The notes beneath the pieces were generated by a model. It searched no databases. It was not told the origin of the DNA and worked only from the letters and a program-made list of their open reading frames with translations. The position numbers and the translations under genes are program-made. This document shows positions 42,700 through 60,136 of a stretch of DNA of 64,000 bases, one piece after another; within the stretch, counting starts at the first letter, position 1, and the number at the start of each line of letters is the position of its first letter. Location: assembly GCA_004322215.1 (NCBI GenBank), contig SCSM01000011.1, positions 310,001 to 374,000 of the forward strand. Reading direction: 5' to 3'. Source of the stretch: Bacteroidota bacterium. Its GTDB lineage: Bacteria > Bacteroidota > Ignavibacteria > Kapaibacteriales > UBA2268.

Positions 42700-44664
42700 A
42701 TGAATTTAGGAGAAAAAAAATATCCTCACGTTTTCAGCCCCGCAAGAATAGGGAAAATGGAACTCAAAAACAGAATAAAGTACGCCTCGACAGAAACAAA
42801 TTTTAATCTCAGGGATGGCTTTGTTACGGATGTAGAAGTTGCTTACATGGAAGCACAAGCAAAAAGCGGTGCAGGTCTCGTCACCACACAAGGTGCTTAT
42901 ACAGACCCGGCAGGTGAAGGCAAGGGATATGTCGGTATGATGGGTATCTGGGATGATAAATACATACCGGGATTAAAAAGGATTGCCGATGTAATCAGGA
43001 AACATGGAGCAAAAAGCATGTGTCAGCTTATGCACTGCGGACGGGTTGGTGGAATTGAATTGGATTATACGGTAGGTCCTTCGGTTGTCAAACAGGCAAT
43101 CCCGAGATTTCGCGAGCCAAAAGAAATGTCACTTGAGAAAATTCATTTAACAATACAAGAACACATTAACGGTGCAAGACGTATAATTGAAGCGGGATTT
43201 GACTCAATCGAAATTTCCGGAATTGTTGGCTATTTGATTTCAAATTTTAATTCAAAATACACGAACAAAAGAACTGATGAATATGGCGGCTCAGTTGAAA
43301 ACAGAGCCCGCTTTATGAGAGAAATAATAGAGGGAATCAGAAAAGAAGTAGGTACGGATATTCCAATTGTAATCAGACTTTGCGGCGAAGAACTCCTCGA
43401 CGACAGAGGTGGTAACACCCCTGAGGAATGTCTCCAAATTATTAAAATTGCCGAAAAAGCCGGGATTGATGCTTTGAGCGTTACAATCGGATGGCAGGAA
43501 TCTGCTGTGTCCGTTATTACACGGGATATTCCTATGGGAAACTGGCTGTTTATTGCCGAGAGAATGAAAAAGAATTTGAACATACCGGTATGTATGGCTT
43601 ATCGGCTCTTTATTCCCGAATTATCCGAAAAAGCAATTTCCGAAGGGAAACTCGATATTTGGGAAATGTGCCGTCCTATGATTGCAGACCCCGACATACC
43701 GCGTAAAATCATCGAGGATAGGCAGGAAGATATTATTCCATGCATGGCATGCAATCTCTGCCTTGCCAGATTGTTTCGCGACCAACCGATTACATGCCTG
43801 GTCAGACCTACTGTTGGTTATGAAGCACATCCGGACTGGCAGATTACTTCAGCACCCAAGAAGAAAAAAGTGTACGTAATAGGAGGAGGTCCCTCGGGTA
43901 TGCAATGTGCAATCGTAGCTGCCCGTAAAGGACATGATGTATCTTTATTCGAGAAAAGCAACCGGCTCGGTGGTCAGCTTGCAACGGCATCAAAAGGTTA
44001 TTTTGGAGATGAAGAATTTTCGCGTTTGATTAATTACTTTTCTACTCAATTAAAAAAGAATAATGTTAATGTATTTTTAAACAGAGAAATGACAGAAAAG
44101 GATTTTGCCGACCCGCTTACCGCTCCGGATACAGTTGTACTTGCAAGTGGTTCATATTTATCAAAATCGGATATTCCAGGAGCCAATAGGGATAATGTAT
44201 GCTTTGCCCATGATGTTATTGAAGGGAAAGTTAAACCCGGGAAAAGAGTGTTTATTGCCGGTGGCAGAGGTCTCGGAATAGCGGTAGCCCAGTTTTTACT
44301 CGGTTCCGGAAATCAATATGAAATTACAATGGTTGAATCCCAGAAAAAGCTTGGCAGGGATGTTAATCCCTCTTATATCTGGCGCTACGTAAAAAAACTG
44401 AAAGAAGGAAAGGTAAATGTTTACAAAGCAAGTAAAATTATCGAAATAAATGATGATGGGGTTGTCATTGACAGCCCTGAAGGAGGGAGAGTAACAATTC
44501 CGGTTGACACAATAATTCTTTCGGACCCTTTACATTCAAAAAATGAACTTGCCGAACATCTTGAATATGCTGTCGGTGAGTTGTACACAATCGGCGATGC
44601 TGTAAAACCAAGACGTGCCCATAATGCTACAATGGAAGGATACAGAACAGGACTCAAGATTTAG
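42700..44664 (+). CDS. Old-yellow-enzyme/2-enoate (2,4-dienoyl-CoA) reductase family, FMN/Fe-S/FAD oxidoreductase
   Basis: N-terminal TIM barrel with NKRTDEYGGSVENRARF; Fe-S cysteines CMACNLCLARLFRDQPITC; C-terminal VYVIGGGPSGMQCAIVAARKGHDVSLFEKS. Confidence 0.92.
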   Translation: MNLGEKKYPHVFSPARIGKMELKNRIKYASTETNFNLRDGFVTDVEVAYMEAQAKSGAGLVTTQGAYTDPAGEGKGYVGMMGIWDDKYIPGLKRIADVIRKHGAKSMCQLMHCGRVGGIELDYTVGPSVVKQAIPRFREPKEMSLEKIHLTIQEHINGARRIIEAGFDSIEISGIVGYLISNFNSKYTNKRTDEYGGSVENRARFMREIIEGIRKEVGTDIPIVIRLCGEELLDDRGGNTPEECLQIIKIAEKAGIDALSVTIGWQESAVSVITRDIPMGNWLFIAERMKKNLNIPVCMAYRLFIPELSEKAISEGKLDIWEMCRPMIADPDIPRKIIEDRQEDIIPCMACNLCLARLFRDQPITCLVRPTVGYEAHPDWQITSAPKKKKVYVIGGGPSGMQCAIVAARKGHDVSLFEKSNRLGGQLATASKGYFGDEEFSRLINYFSTQLKKNNVNVFLNREMTEKDFADPLTAPDTVVLASGSYLSKSDIPGANRDNVCFAHDVIEGKVKPGKRVFIAGGRGLGIAVAQFLLGSGNQYEITMVESQKKLGRDVNPSYIWRYVKKLKEGKVNVYKASKIIEINDDGVVIDSPEGGRVTIPVDTIILSDPLHSKNELAEHLEYAVGELYTIGDAVKPRRAHNATMEGYRTGLKI

Positions 44665-44690
44665 TTTTAAGTTTTAAGTGCTGCGTGTTA
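44665..44690 (+). repeat. Degenerate TTTTAAG heptad repeat (solo arm)
   Basis: TTTTAAG TTTTAAG TGCTGCG TGTTAA directly abutting the upstream stop codon. Confidence 0.6.
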
Positions 44691-44891
44691 ATGTAAATTT
44701 TGAATTTTGAATATAGTAATTTGAATGATGAATATTAATTTGATAAATAAATGACAAATTTATCGCTTACGATTATATATTAGTAGCAGTGAATAAACAG
44801 CCACCATTCATATCCCGAAGTGGATTATATATTTATAGATTTGATAATTGAAATTTTTTAAAAATCATTAATTATAAAATAGGTGTTAATT

Positions 44892-45389
44892 ATGTCGGTA
44901 GAAATTCCTTTGGAGAAAAAGTTTAAGATTTTATGCGGGATAGCCAGGGCACAACATTTTGCATGGCGTGAAGCATGCAGGCAGTTATGCCCGGAAATTG
45001 ATACAACAGAATTTGTCAATAAAATGTGGGAAGTCTCTGCTCACGATACCGCCAAAGCATATCTGAAAATGTTAAATAAAGATGATTCCGTACCTGCACA
45101 AATAGCTGATTCAATCGTTAAGAGCAGTATAACTATGGGTGAGGATGCAAAAATAATTAAAGGCGATGGGAATGATGAATATTATGTAAGACATGATTCT
45201 TGTCCATGGTTTGATTGGCACAAAAATCTAAATCTTCTTCCCGAAGACAGACCCGGATGCGATACCTGGTATTTTAAGACTGTGGATTTTATTAATGAAT
45301 CACTGGGCACTAATGTTAAAATTGAAACAACTAAGTCATTGCCCGATGGAGACGATTGCTGTATGAGAAGAATTTGGGTTGAGAAATGA
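44892..45389 (+). CDS. L-2-amino-thiazoline-4-carboxylic acid hydrolase-like family protein
   Basis: Overall pattern with SCPWFDWHKNLNLLPEDRPGCDTWYF and DGDDCCMRRIWVEK; ORF track starts at 44883, ATGTCGGTAGAA at 44892 preferred. Confidence 0.55.
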   Translation: MSVEIPLEKKFKILCGIARAQHFAWREACRQLCPEIDTTEFVNKMWEVSAHDTAKAYLKMLNKDDSVPAQIADSIVKSSITMGEDAKIIKGDGNDEYYVRHDSCPWFDWHKNLNLLPEDRPGCDTWYFKTVDFINESLGTNVKIETTKSLPDGDDCCMRRIWVEK

Positions 45390-54904: not shown

Positions 54905-55222
54905 ATGGCTAAGATCCCAGCTCAAATAATTGAAATTATTAAAAAATTTATAGAAAGGGCTTTGGAAGATAATATTCATATATCTCAGGCTGTTCTTTTC
55001 GGAAGTTATGCCAGAGGAACTAACAACGAATGGAGCGATATTGATGTTGCAGTTGTATCAGATGATTTTGAAGGTATCAGGATATTTGATAATAAAAAAA
55101 TCAGGAAAGCGAAATTAAAAACAAGTATTGACCTTGAAACTCATCCGTACAGGCCTGAGGATTTTACATCAGATAATCCTTTCGTACAAGAAATTTTGGA
55201 GTATGGGATAAGAATTGTTTAG
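54905..55222 (+). CDS. MNT-type nucleotidyltransferase-domain protein
   Basis: AVLFGSYARGTNNEWSDIDVAVVSDDF (GSxARGxxxxxSDIDxxV). Confidence 0.9.
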   Translation: MAKIPAQIIEIIKKFIERALEDNIHISQAVLFGSYARGTNNEWSDIDVAVVSDDFEGIRIFDNKKIRKAKLKTSIDLETHPYRPEDFTSDNPFVQEILEYGIRIV

Positions 55223-55330
55223 ATAATAATTTATCTTTCTTTTTAGTAACCCTGGAGAATTGAAAATTGTTTTTTAAAAACATAATCTCAAATCAAAATA
55301 ACAATATAAGAATGAAAATAAAATAATTTT

Positions 55331-56461
55331 ATGGATTATCAACTAAATGAAACTCAGCTCTTGATCCAGCAAACTTTTAAAAGTTTTGTTGATGCCCGTG
55401 TAAAACCGCAGGCTGAGCAAATTGATGTTAATAAAGAGTTTCCGCATGAATTGTTTAAAGCTGTGGGTGAACTTGGATTTTATGGGATGAGGTATCCGGT
55501 TGAATCAGGAGGAAGCGGGCTCGATATTCTTTCCTACTGTCTCGCTGTTACCGAACTTGCAAGAGGTTCTTTGTCGCTTGCAGCTGCTTGTTCAATGCAG
55601 TCTCTAATGGCTACATATTTCTTATACAGGTTCGGGGACGATGAGATTAAAACTAATTATTTTTCTCCTGCTTTGAAAGGAGAGAAAATCGGTACAATTT
55701 GCATGACTGAACCCAATGCTGGAAGTGATTTGAATAATATAACAACCACAGCCAAAGTAATTGATGATGGATTTATTTTAAACGGTCAGAAGATTTGGAT
55801 AACATCGGCTACTGTTGCAGATTTTATGACAGTGCTGTCAAGAACAGACAACCACGAAAAACTCTCTATCTTTTTTGTACCGTCTAACTTTGAAGGAGTG
55901 CATATAGGTAAAAGCATTGATAAGCTCGGAGTGCGAGGTTCTGTTACAAGTGAAGTCTCATTCGATAATGTCAAAATTCCAATAAATTATTTGCTTGGTA
56001 AAATTGGTGAAGGTACTAATTGCCTATTTGAAATACTTGCTGAAATAAGAATAATGACTGCTGCACTGGCTTATGGAGTATCTATCGCTGCTTATGAAGA
56101 TTCCCTGGAATATGCGAAAACACGAGTACAGTTCGGAAAGCCAATCGGTAAATTTCAGTTGATACAGGAAAAATTTGCAGATATGGCTGTCAAACTTGAA
56201 ACTACTAAGCAAATGCTTTACCATGCAGCAAGGCTTTGCGACCTTAACTTGCCCCGGCAAAAGGAAGCCGCAATCGTGAAATTATATGCATCGGAATGTG
56301 CAAATTCAATCTGCGATGAAGCATCGAGAGTTATGGCATCTTACGGCTATGCAATGGAATATCCCATGCAGAGATACCTTCGAGATGCAAGGTTCACTCT
56401 TATTGGGGGCGGCACAAACGAAATTCTGAAAATAAATATTGCCAAAGAACTCGGACTCTAA
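55331..56461 (+). CDS. Acyl-CoA dehydrogenase
   Basis: ICMTEPNAGSDLNNITTTAK, GQKIWITSATVADF, YLRDARFTLIGGGTNEILKINIAKELG. Confidence 0.96.
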   Translation: MDYQLNETQLLIQQTFKSFVDARVKPQAEQIDVNKEFPHELFKAVGELGFYGMRYPVESGGSGLDILSYCLAVTELARGSLSLAAACSMQSLMATYFLYRFGDDEIKTNYFSPALKGEKIGTICMTEPNAGSDLNNITTTAKVIDDGFILNGQKIWITSATVADFMTVLSRTDNHEKLSIFFVPSNFEGVHIGKSIDKLGVRGSVTSEVSFDNVKIPINYLLGKIGEGTNCLFEILAEIRIMTAALAYGVSIAAYEDSLEYAKTRVQFGKPIGKFQLIQEKFADMAVKLETTKQMLYHAARLCDLNLPRQKEAAIVKLYASECANSICDEASRVMASYGYAMEYPMQRYLRDARFTLIGGGTNEILKINIAKELGL

Positions 56462-56466
56462 GAAAG

Positions 56467-56494
56467 TTTTAAGTTTTAAGTTTTAAGTGTTAAG
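56467..56494 (+). repeat. Heptad array (TTTTAAG)3-TGTTAAG, left inverted arm
   Basis: TTTTAAG TTTTAAG TTTTAAG TGTTAAG. Confidence 0.9.
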
Positions 56495-56525
56495 TTGAAT
56501 TTATGAAATAACTTAAATTTTGAAA

Positions 56526-56909
56526 ATGGATAACAATGAGAAAATAGGAATTGAAGAAAGAAGTTTCAAGTTTGCACTCGAAATTGTTAATTTATATAAG
56601 GAATTAAAAAATCTTAATGAATTTGTTATATCAAAACAACTATTAAGAGCCGGAACAAGCATAGGAGCTAATGTCTCTGAAGCTCAAGCTGCTCAAACTA
56701 AGAAAGATTTTATCACAAAAATGACTATTGCCTCAAAAGAGGCAAGAGAAACAAGATATTGGCTGCAATTATTACAGCAAAGTAAATTAGTTGGGATAAA
56801 TTTTAATAATTATTTGATTGAAATCAAAAATATAATCAATATTCTAACTAAAATTGTAAAAACTTCAGTCCATAATTTAAACGTTGAAATAAAATCACTT
56901 AAAACTTAA
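56526..56909 (+). CDS. Four-helix-bundle protein (S23 rRNA-intervening-sequence/Avd-like)
   Basis: RSFKFALEIVNLYKELKN...SKQLLRAGTSIGANVSEAQAAQTKKDFITKMTIASKEARETRYWLQLL; ORF track starts at 56520, second ATG at 56526 also possible. Confidence 0.92.
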   Translation: MDNNEKIGIEERSFKFALEIVNLYKELKNLNEFVISKQLLRAGTSIGANVSEAQAAQTKKDFITKMTIASKEARETRYWLQLLQQSKLVGINFNNYLIEIKNIINILTKIVKTSVHNLNVEIKSLKT

Positions 56910-56925
56910 CACTCAACACTTAACA
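56898..56925 (-). repeat. Heptad array, right inverted arm
   Basis: CTTAAAA CTTAACA CTCAACA CTTAACA; reverse complement of TGTTAAG/TTTTAAG heptads; overlaps the stop codon of the bundle ORF. Confidence 0.9.
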
Positions 56926-56964
56926 CTTTAATCTTAATTAATGAATGAATATTGAGGAGAAAAA

Positions 56965-57336
56965 ATGAAGATATTGTTAGGGAAACCCGGATTGGATGGG
57001 CATGATGTCGGAGTTAAGGTACTTGCCCATGCCCTGGTTGATGAAGGATTTGATGTAGTTTATACAGGATTGCGAAAAACAATAGAGCAGATTGTAGATA
57101 TAGCAATTAATGTCAAAGCTGATGTTATTGGTCTGTCAATTTTATCGGGAACACACATAGTTCTGTGTCAGCAATTGAAGGATGAGTTAAATAAAAGAGA
57201 TATGACAATTCCATGGATTGTCGGAGGCAACATACCCGATGAGGATGTTGAGAATATCAAAGCAATTGGAGCTGATGCGGCTTTTCCTACAGGAACAAGT
57301 ATTGAGTCAGTCATAAATTATTTTAAGAAATTATAA
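56965..57336 (+). CDS. B12-binding small subunit of acyl-CoA (methylmalonyl-CoA-type) mutase
   Basis: GKPGLDGHDVGVKVLAHALVDEGFDVVYTGLRKT (DxHxxG). Confidence 0.96.
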   Translation: MKILLGKPGLDGHDVGVKVLAHALVDEGFDVVYTGLRKTIEQIVDIAINVKADVIGLSILSGTHIVLCQQLKDELNKRDMTIPWIVGGNIPDEDVENIKAIGADAAFPTGTSIESVINYFKKL

Positions 57337-57405
57337 TTTAATTTTCGTTCTGCTGTTAAGAATGTTCAATAATTGTTTTTATAATTTCAAAAATAATTTG
57401 CAATT

Positions 57406-57432
57406 GACCTAAATTATGACTAAATTTAGGTC
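57406..57432. promoter_or_regulatory. Perfect 10-bp inverted repeat upstream of the toxin-antitoxin pair (candidate operator)
   Basis: GACCTAAATT-atgacta-AATTTAGGTC, 30 bp before the antitoxin ATG. Confidence 0.55.
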
Positions 57433-57462
57433 GTTATTATTATATATTGTAAGGATAATAAA

Positions 57463-57747
57463 ATGATACCTAGCGAAGCAATAAAACCTATTAGCTATTT
57501 CAAAACACATGCTTCTGAAATTATTCGTGATGTTTCGAATAGCCGGAAAACGATGATAATTACTCAGAACGGGGAAGCAAAAGCTATTCTCCAGGATATT
57601 AAATTATATGAACAAACCCAGGATAGTCTTGCTTTACTTAAAATTTTGGCTTTAAGCAGTAAAAGTTTAAATGATGGCAAGGTAAAACCAATTAAAGATG
57701 CTTTTCACGATATAAAAGAAAAAATCAAGCGACTCAATGGCAAATGA
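57463..57747 (+). CDS. Phd/YefM-family antitoxin
   Basis: MIPSEAIKPISYFKTHASEIIRDVSNSRKTMIITQNGEAKAILQDIKLYEQ. Confidence 0.92.
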   Translation: MIPSEAIKPISYFKTHASEIIRDVSNSRKTMIITQNGEAKAILQDIKLYEQTQDSLALLKILALSSKSLNDGKVKPIKDAFHDIKEKIKRLNGK

Positions 57748-58067
57748 CTTACAAGATTTTCATAATAAACGATGCTGAAGAAGATATCCTTGAGATTTAT
57801 AATTATGTAGCTAATAGTGACTCCCATGCAAAAGCATTAAGACTTTTATCTGAAATCGAAAAAAAATGTAAAAGTCTTAGTGATGTACCTGAACGAGGTA
57901 ATTACCCACCTGAACTTGAGAGAATTGGAATTCATGATTTCAGGGAAATTCATTATAAACCTTATAGAATCATTTACCGGGTAATTAAATCTTCAGTATA
58001 TATTCATTGCATATTAGACGGTCGTCGCAATCTAAATGAATTATTAGAAAACAGATTATTGAGATAA
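57744..58067 (+). CDS. RelE/ParE-family toxin
   Basis: IFIINDAEEDILEIYNYVANSDSHAKALRLL...IGIHDFREIHYKPYRIIYRVIKSSVYIHCILDGRRNL; overlaps antitoxin by 4 nt. Confidence 0.93.
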   Translation: MTYKIFIINDAEEDILEIYNYVANSDSHAKALRLLSEIEKKCKSLSDVPERGNYPPELERIGIHDFREIHYKPYRIIYRVIKSSVYIHCILDGRRNLNELLENRLLR

Positions 58068-58195
58068 AAGTATTATTTCTAAAGAGCTATCTGATATTAT
58101 TTTAAAAGTAAAATATTTAGACAAATTTCTAAATTTATATAAAAATGAATTTGATTAATTTTGTTATAATTTTTTATTAACGTATCTTCAATTAA

Positions 58196-59791
58196 ATGAT
58201 GAATGACAAAGATGTTTATTGGGAATCTGGTTTAAAAATTAATCCTCTATATACAAAAGAGGATTTAGAAAAAAATGTTCCGGAAACTGATATTGGATTA
58301 CCGGGTGAATATCCTTTTACGAGAGGTATTCACAAATTAATGTACAGGAAACAGCCATTTACAATCAGGCAGTATGCAGGATTCGGCACACCGGAGGAGA
58401 CCCACGAAAGATTTCTATACTTAATTAAAAACGGACAGACTGGCTTAAATGTTGCTTTTGATCTACCCACACAAACGGGATTTGATTCTGATGACAGCTG
58501 TGCAATCGGAGAAGTCGGACGTGTAGGAATGGCAGTTGACACACTTGCCGATTTCGAAACAGTATTCAAAGATATTGATTTGGATAAAATCACAGTTTCT
58601 TTAACTATCAACGGCTCTGCTATTGTTCTTGTTGCAATGTATCTGGCAATGGCACAGAAATATGGATTTGATATTAAAAATCTGAGAGGAACAGCACAGA
58701 ATGATATATTGAAGGAATTTATCGGACGAGGAACCTGGATTTTTCCCGTTCCTGAGTCGGTGAAATTAGTTGTAGATGTTATTGAATATTGTGCGAAGGA
58801 AGTTCCTAAATACAGTCCGGTCAGTGTTTGCGGCTATCATATTCGGGAATCGGGTGCCAATCCGGTACAGGAGATGGCTTATGCTTTCTGCATTGCTAAA
58901 GCATACATCAATGAAACACTAAAGCGTGGAATAACTATTGATGAATTTGCACCGCGATTATCCTTCAACTTCGATATACACGGAAATTTCTTCGAACAAA
59001 TAGCAAAATTCAGGGGCAGCCGCCGGCTCTGGGCAAAAATAATTAAAGAAGAATACAAGGCAAAAGATGATTCATCCTGCTGGATGAGAATGATTGCAGG
59101 TGGCGGCGGCGGTGGCTTAACAAAAGAGCAACCTGAAAACAATATTATAAGAAGTGCATATTATGCTCTCATCAGTGCATTGTCAGGAACACAAACAATG
59201 GCTTTATGCTCTTATGACGAAGCATATACTATACCTACTGAAAAAGCAGCCGAGATTTCTCTAAGAACAATGCAGATACTTCTTTATGAAATGGGAATCT
59301 GTGATACTGTTGACCCATTGGGCGGCTCTTATTATATTGAGACAATGTCAACAGAGATGGAGAAAGCAATTAAGGAAAAAATGTCTGAAGTTGAAGCACA
59401 GGGTGATATAATCGAAGCAATTGCTTCAGGTAAAGTACAGGAAGCGATTTCAAAACAGGCTTATCAAAGAGAAAAGGATATACAGGAAGGCAGAGTAAAA
59501 AAAGTAGGTGTTAATATTTTCAAAAAAGAAGAAAAAGTCAGAACAGTCGAGTTCCATCCTTATCACGAAGAGAATGCTAAAAAGCAAGTTGCAAACCTTA
59601 ACAAAATAAAACAAGAAAGAGACAATCAAAAAGTTATTGAATATCTCGCTCAAATTAAGAAGGATGCTCAGAATAATCTAAATCTAATGCCTTCGGTTAT
59701 TGAAGCTGTCAAGGTTTATGCTACTGTAGGCGAAATAACGAATGCCATAAAAGAAGTTTACGGGGAATATGAGGAGAAGATTTATTTTTAA
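58196..59791 (+). CDS. Acyl-CoA mutase large subunit (methylmalonyl-CoA mutase type)
   Basis: YPFTRGIHKLMYRKQPFTIRQYAGFGTPEETHERF, VAFDLPTQTGFDSD, QNDILKEFIGRGTWIFP. Confidence 0.95.
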   Translation: MMNDKDVYWESGLKINPLYTKEDLEKNVPETDIGLPGEYPFTRGIHKLMYRKQPFTIRQYAGFGTPEETHERFLYLIKNGQTGLNVAFDLPTQTGFDSDDSCAIGEVGRVGMAVDTLADFETVFKDIDLDKITVSLTINGSAIVLVAMYLAMAQKYGFDIKNLRGTAQNDILKEFIGRGTWIFPVPESVKLVVDVIEYCAKEVPKYSPVSVCGYHIRESGANPVQEMAYAFCIAKAYINETLKRGITIDEFAPRLSFNFDIHGNFFEQIAKFRGSRRLWAKIIKEEYKAKDDSSCWMRMIAGGGGGGLTKEQPENNIIRSAYYALISALSGTQTMALCSYDEAYTIPTEKAAEISLRTMQILLYEMGICDTVDPLGGSYYIETMSTEMEKAIKEKMSEVEAQGDIIEAIASGKVQEAISKQAYQREKDIQEGRVKKVGVNIFKKEEKVRTVEFHPYHEENAKKQVANLNKIKQERDNQKVIEYLAQIKKDAQNNLNLMPSVIEAVKVYATVGEITNAIKEVYGEYEEKIYF

Positions 59792-59803: not shown

Positions 59804-60136
59804 TTATTGTATTTCTTCTTGATGTATTTCAATTCCTGTCCTTTTTATTTCTTCTATAAATGGGTCACTTTCTATAAAATAATCGGTAGGAAAAGGATGA
59901 GTTTCAATATCTGGATAGTTTATATTTATTCTTGAATATTGCTTTATATTATCGAATGTATTAAGTGTAAAATTATCGGATACAAGCATAATATCTATAT
60001 CCGACCACTCATTCATCTCATCTCTGGCAGCCGAACCGAACATTATCGTCTTTTTTATATATAAGCCGATAGATTTGCAATCTCTCAAAAAGCTTTTTAC
60101 TTGTTCTATAGCTTGTTCTCTTGTTGTCACAACCAT
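59804..60136 (-). CDS. MNT-type nucleotidyltransferase-domain protein
   Basis: IMFGSAARDEMNEWSDIDIMLVSDNF; similar to ORF 54905-55222. Confidence 0.88.
   Translation of the reverse strand: MVVTTREQAIEQVKSFLRDCKSIGLYIKKTIMFGSAARDEMNEWSDIDIMLVSDNFTLNTFDNIKQYSRININYPDIETHPFPTDYFIESDPFIEEIKRTGIEIHQEEIQ

Follow-up and report, generated by a model that had tools for sequence, protein, structure and literature searches.

What is a 127-residue S23 gene doing between two metabolic genes, framed by inverted arrays of a 7-bp repeat? The question arises in a 64,000-nucleotide stretch of DNA (the window) from a Bacteroidota bacterium of the GTDB lineage UBA2268 (assembly GCA_004322215.1, contig SCSM01000011.1, positions 310,001 to 374,000 of the forward strand). 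To our knowledge, S23 has been without an assigned function since its discovery in ribosomal RNA (rRNA) intervening sequences, and heptamer arrays have been reported separately, without explanation. A first-pass annotation of the window proposed that the locus is a minimal mobile cassette. We found this proposal well supported by the recurrence of the layout in multiple phyla, by empty sites, and by related S23 genes that lie at unrelated sites with the same repeats. On the basis of these sequence comparisons, we consider it likely that the locus is one copy of a mobile element of ~0.5 kb, whose S23 protein probably recognizes its own repeats.

The whole element, comprising the S23 open reading frame (ORF) and both inverted repeat arms, spans 56459..56940 (~480 bp, no strand assigned), as judged from the inverted arms, the element-length distribution, and the edges of homology; the span of 56467-56925 annotated at first was correct in place but not in its limits. 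The left arm (56464..56496, + strand) reads (AAGTTTT)3 then AAGTGTT and holds 4.7 copies of the 7-bp unit with 92% matches. The right arm (56896..56937, - strand) is the inverse array (CTTAAAA-CTTAACA-CTCAACA-CTTAACA and further units), with 84% matches over its first 4.7 copies. Between 56459-56496 and 56903-56940, the arms are 82% complementary across 38 nt. The ORF (56526..56909, + strand, 127 aa) starts at an ATG, with an in-frame TTG upstream at 56520, and its final codons are covered by the right array, which encodes the last residues and the stop codon (SLKT*). The inverted arrays around the ORF and the stop within the right array are thus both as first described, as are the two neighbors, an acyl-CoA dehydrogenase gene and a B12-binding protein gene. 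The two arms were the only period-7 arrays in the window at a threshold of at least 18/21 matches, and no arrays with periods of 5, 6, 8, 9, or 10 were found in the window at that threshold. A search with AAGTKTTAAGTKTTAAG, allowing at most 2 mismatches, yielded 8 matches in the window, 7 of them inside the two arrays (shuffled expectation 0.15, maximum 2). The element has the form described for intergenic 7-bp arrays (short tandemly repeated repetitive [STRR]-like, with few units). An Rfam scan of 55000-58500 matched no family; the element thus does not lie inside a 23S rRNA gene.

The ORF was assigned to the S23 family by both PF05635 (85.1 bits, cut-off 33.8, E 4.5e-24) and TIGR02436 (99.9 bits, cut-off 24, E 8.9e-29). 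Its AlphaFold2 (AF2) model is four-helix with a mean pLDDT of 95.3, and Foldseek matched this model to 2rld (E 1.1e-7) and 2gsc, the two solved S23 structures, and more weakly to Avd (4dwl, 8ub7, 8ub8). Of the earlier label “S23/Avd-like,” the S23 part is therefore secure and the Avd part amounts to a weak resemblance of fold. PF05635 was the only Pfam match, with no recombinase, nuclease, reverse transcriptase, or Y1 (HUH) transposase family, and no transposase was matched by the element's own ORF in Pfam or NCBIfam, no search for one in trans having been made. Across ten pairs of S23 copies, dN/dS was 0.03-0.21, indicating purifying selection; selection thus maintains the protein, whether this serves its own propagation or the host. 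S23 genes were present in 157 of 198 sampled Bacteroidota genomes, with up to 16 or 17 divergent copies per genome; phage records gave no S23 match with the query used.

We assessed the layout around S23 genes in two sets. For the order set, we took 93 distinct S23 ORFs from the window's own order and examined 250 bp on each side. The cross-phylum set comprised 80 named loci from more than 10 phyla, including Planctomycetota, Chloroflexota, Clostridia, Proteobacteria, Acidobacteriota, Gemmatimonadota, a cyanobacterium, Elusimicrobia, and a Patescibacterium; it was obtained by a collection scan with one S23 set (A2), because another, of 20 diverse S23s (A1), was too variable, and consequently leans towards one S23 branch. 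Self-similarity in the flanks of the 93 loci rose at a lag of 7 and its multiples only (0.369/0.352 vs 0.277 far away). Arrays were detected in 41/93 upstream and 38/93 downstream flanks, compared to 15/485 windows more than 900 bp away, and in 22/80 and 24/80 flanks of the cross-phylum set, compared to 23/1130. The flanks were inverted complements of each other at 67/93 S23 ORFs (7/277 with partners swapped between loci) and at 56/80 in the cross-phylum set (2/316 swapped), while direct flank similarity was found at 16/93 in the order set. By comparison, non-S23 ORFs at these loci, which served as controls, had inverted flanks in 6/163 cases. The signal was weaker at 29 further Bacteroidota loci, 14 of which had inverted flanks (46/812 shuffled). 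Inverted arms also surrounded four of six plasmid S23 copies, for which no empty-site pair was obtained. Thus, inverted arrays do occur in the flanks of homologous ORFs, where the first-pass annotation had suggested looking, and the lack of heptads there that would have refuted its proposal was not borne out. Related elements had a median length of 504 bp and a median arm length of 33 nt, and array length peaked sharply at 4 to 5 units, with 84 of 200 arms in the 4.x class. Some loci departed from this form: L053, L097, L115, and L120 have long inverted repeats around the S23 ORF in which no heptad arrays were detected, L120 carrying 11-base units in both flanks, and L038 (genome G094) holds two S23 genes that are nearly identical and lie within very long arrays of period 7 (ATCACCA-type), which on both sides are direct rather than inverted.

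To what extent is the repeat a property of the protein? The period was 7 in 140 of 172 array-bearing flanks, 8 in 18, 9 in 7, and longer in 7. Where both arms bear an array, they have the unit length in common, including the minority lengths of 8, 9, and 11; these 8-, 9-, and 11-mers rule out a strict 7-nt rule. TTTTAAG/TGTTAAG, initially put forward as a general motif, did not generalize either, as units are specific to S23 subfamilies. Cross-genome S23 pairs with at least 75% amino acid identity had the same unit in 94% of cases (17 pairs), falling to 28% at 60-75% identity and ~0% below 40%. A Mantel test of unit against S23 protein gave a rho of -0.327, with 0 of 2000 permutations as strong. 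Two octad S23s (L113 and L116) have both unit sequence and unit length in common, and S23 pairs were also found with unrelated flanks, within one genome (L073/L075, L081/L082, and L078/L079) and between genomes (L074/L091). Different S23s within one genome carry different units, and the unit sequence is therefore not a matter of host composition. By these comparisons, the period and the inverted symmetry are conserved, and the unit sequence is subfamily-specific, following the protein rather than the host.

The same genomes contain signs of dispersal. S23 pairs that are 86-94% identical occur within one genome at unrelated flanks with the same repeats, and their homology stops at the arms; in L073/L075, L078/L079, and L084/L089, it begins and ends at or beside the arms. 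The last of these pairs (from G072 and G097, respectively) does not represent two unrelated insertions, as both copies occupy one chromosomal site but face opposite ways, a pattern that resembles inversion through recombination of one arm with the other; the S23 of L084 has an internal stop. Empty sites in relatives, a further check that had been suggested at the outset, were found as well. The clearest is in the window itself at 45382, where two genes lie 2 bp apart (TTGAGAAATG). At the equivalent site of a congener (G064), an S23 element with AAGTTTT/AGTGTTG arms (L070) lies between these two genes. Further filled/empty pairs in congeners were L064 vs L320, L092 vs L298, L087 vs L318, and L090 vs L309. 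At a tRNA-Arg site in another genus, an S23 flanked by GGGTTTT arms is present in four species, three species are fully empty, three genomes have ORF-less arrays only, and one (G001) has neither S23 nor arrays, though it is diverged. Residual heptads without an ORF were seen at some otherwise empty sites (L306 and L312). The repeat-free empty sites rule out, as a general rule, that arms are copied from the target sequence. As delimited by these alignments, the unit that is present or absent is the S23 ORF with two inverted arms of short tandem units. At the window's own site, two congeners with the same gene order also have an S23, with TTTTGAA-type repeats; it is 60-64% identical to the window S23, while the adjoining genes are 86-93% identical, suggesting that the occupant was replaced or diverged fast.

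These patterns bear on the idea that S23 is a domesticated regulator, a host protein that binds intergenic arrays as a regulon and autoregulates via its own arms, with apparent mobility reflecting ordinary gene gain and loss. Such a role would account for the purifying selection on S23, the location of arrays near gene ends, and the retention of S23 at the same site across species. We nevertheless give it very little credence: a genome may hold up to 17 divergent S23s, presence is patchy with clean insertion at empty sites, near-duplicates lie at unrelated sites of the same genome, and array positions differ between congeners.

Arrays also occur without an ORF. In sampled S23-bearing genomes, 39 of 46 ORF-less arrays carry the unit of an S23 from the same genome; their match to the S23 sets of other genomes was 9-73%, close relatives having subfamilies in common. 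The octad of L113 and L116 also occurs in arrays without an ORF alongside these S23s. Within the same family, 0 arrays were found in 276 kb of S23-null genomes vs 32 in 389 kb of S23-bearing genomes, and within a second genus 0 in 138 kb vs 9 in 190 kb (2 of these 9 being the arms of one S23 element), on contigs picked for convenience rather than at random and with S23-null status given by a hidden Markov model (HMM) search of draft genomes. Heptads are thus literally found genome-wide without the ORF, an outcome that the first-pass annotation would have counted against a link to S23; we do not read it so, since most are cognate to S23s of the same genome and the sampled S23-null genomes have none. 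In the window, a degenerate ORF-less array (44662-44715, AGTTTTAAGTTTTAAG ... AATTTTGAATTTTGAA) lies directly downstream of a gene, and its unit is cognate to the S23 element at 56459. Elsewhere, ORF-less arrays occupy one tRNA-Arg-adjacent site in three genomes (L276 in G078, L275 in G082, and L280 in G063); the GTGCTAGT octads of G078 match the octad S23 (L113) of that genome, and those of G082 (CCGTAACC) look as if the native flank had seeded them.

It could be argued from such arrays that S23 is passive cargo, with heptad arrays arising and spreading by replication slippage and recombination independent of S23, which then lands in or rides between them. Although arrays do exist without the ORF and the native flank looks to be the source of those at some sites, it is hard to see on this account why unit sequence and length track the S23 subfamily from genome to genome and at unrelated sites, why arms are missing at empty sites, why sampled S23-null genomes lack arrays, and why the S23 gene is under purifying selection. 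We consider passive carriage very unlikely.

Does the element act as RNA or as DNA? Its strand can fold arm to arm as either (RNA z -3.5, DNA z -4.1 vs shuffles), in line with the earlier suggestion that the arms could form a hairpin. Mismatches in the arms were of G.U type in 196 cases and of A.C type in 171 (p=0.21), showing no RNA bias, and the accompanying suggestion of an RNA-binding protein with its cognate structured RNA received no positive support. RVT_1 (PF00078) had 0 matches in the window's genome (G000, assembly 96.7% complete) and no match in six S23-rich genomes (G045, G076, G090, G086, G027, and G097), so that a need for a reverse transcriptase is not supported. These results also concern a selfish element acting at the RNA level, in the manner of intervening sequences (IVSs): the arms would form an RNA stem bound by S23, RNase III or S23 would process the transcript, and movement would proceed via an RNA intermediate and a borrowed reverse transcriptase. 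There is precedent in the IVS inside 23S rRNA, which consists of an S23 ORF and 28-bp complementary termini in 428 nt (PMC4990558), and both the stability of the folded strand as RNA and the weak fold resemblance of S23 to Avd of the diversity-generating retroelement (DGR) ribonucleoprotein are consistent with it. We judge this route unlikely, given that the G.U excess expected under RNA selection is missing, that RVT_1 is absent from the window's genome and the six S23-rich genomes, and that folding as DNA is equally favored.

Several observations weigh against a mobile element with cognate repeats. Vertical inheritance of copies at one site accounts for part of the correlation between protein and repeat, and inverted flanks were not detectable at ~28% of S23 loci in both sets. 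ORF-less arrays mostly stand alone: within 600 bp, 7 of 32 have an inverted partner and 5 a direct one, which mostly rules out that such arrays are usually hairpins. At the tRNA-Arg site, G063 bears arrays with no S23 detected in that genome. The native flank there (CCGTAACTT) is similar to both the G082 octads and the G078 heptads, so that some arrays may arise locally. No target-site duplication was recognizable in the filled/empty pairs, but these pairs are different species and a short duplication could have been lost. No transposition event was observed; the differences are at the species level only.

With these points taken into account, we favor a mobile element in which S23 is probably the specificity factor, binding the unit of its own subfamily. 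S23 assembles from four-helix bundles into a homopentameric ring, as described for the Xanthomonas campestris protein (PMC4990558). Such a ring would probably bind multiple units of a ~32-nt arm simultaneously, and the 4-5 units of an arm would fit a model with one unit read per subunit. Recognition of the repeats would permit insertion or amplification of the element and of its derivatives without an ORF, in the way that the repetitive extragenic palindromic (REP)-associated tyrosine transposase (RAYT) acts on REP sequences. Given the lack of any match of the ORF to recombinase, nuclease, or reverse transcriptase families, we propose that breaking and joining would be carried out either by S23 itself, through a hidden activity, or by replication and repair enzymes of the host acting at the hairpin that the arms can form.

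How does the element compare to known systems? IVSs with an S23 ORF occur in 23S rRNA, for example in Coxiella and Leptospira (PMC4990558). They resemble the element in protein family, size (~0.43-0.5 kb), inverted complementary termini, and sporadic occurrence, and they are described as selfish; however, they lie inside rRNA genes, whereas the element is intergenic, has arms that are tandem arrays matching the S23 subfamily, and has dispersed ORF-less relatives. On a conservative view, the element could be the general form of the IVS. Heptameric repeats have been published as GGGNATC in Xanthomonas and Nostoc (PMC4692102) and as TAACTGA in Beggiatoaceae, Cyanobacteria, and Bacteroidetes (PMC4679880). 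Like the arms, these are intergenic 7-bp arrays with ~4 units preferred and inverted pairs (70 in X. campestris), and some of the lineages concerned carry S23 (XCC0516 comes from X. campestris). The two reports link no S23 or other protein partner to them, and one describes them as generally not associated with mobile elements. We found no report joining S23 to heptamer repeats in the open-access literature, though an earlier description elsewhere is possible. REP/RAYT systems likewise combine a coding element that has inverted flanking repeats with numerous cognate copies across the genome that lack the ORF. They differ in that RAYT belongs to the Y1 HUH transposases and REPs are palindromic, whereas S23 has no match among transposase families and is accompanied by tandem arrays. 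Miniature inverted-repeat transposable elements (MITEs) and insertion sequence (IS) elements are likewise small, intergenically dispersed insertions with terminal inverted repeats; unlike these, the S23 element has no transposase match, recognizable target-site duplication, or family-wide terminal sequence. Finally, Avd of DGRs is, like S23, a small four-helix bundle and a pentamer, with a weak Foldseek match, but the element has no DGR reverse transcriptase, template, or variable repeat, and the window's genome has no RVT_1. No known kind of element has ends made of tandem units that follow a protein subfamily in sequence and length.

The region around the mutase genes contains other small cassettes. 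A Phd/YefM antitoxin (PF02604) and a ParE toxin (PF05016) are encoded at 57463-58067, between the genes for the B12-binding subunit and the methylmalonyl-CoA mutase large subunit, and two small nucleotidyltransferase (PF01909) genes (54905-55222 and 59804-60136) flank the same cluster. Several small, mobile-looking cassettes are interspersed in this operon region.

A broader possibility, which we advance tentatively and hold at somewhat less than even weight, is that S23 is the specificity factor, and perhaps the enzyme, of a new class of mobile element with tandem ends chosen by protein subfamily, that much unexplained heptamer-repeat content is its debris or non-autonomous fraction, and that each subunit of the ring may read one unit. 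If true, the link between S23 and the repeats would explain both S23 genes and heptamer arrays, and the element would be among the smallest protein-coding mobile elements. Should S23 have a strand-transfer activity of its own, this would be a new recombination chemistry in a 120-residue helical bundle. The element would also be one that scatters short tandem repeats through bacterial genomes.
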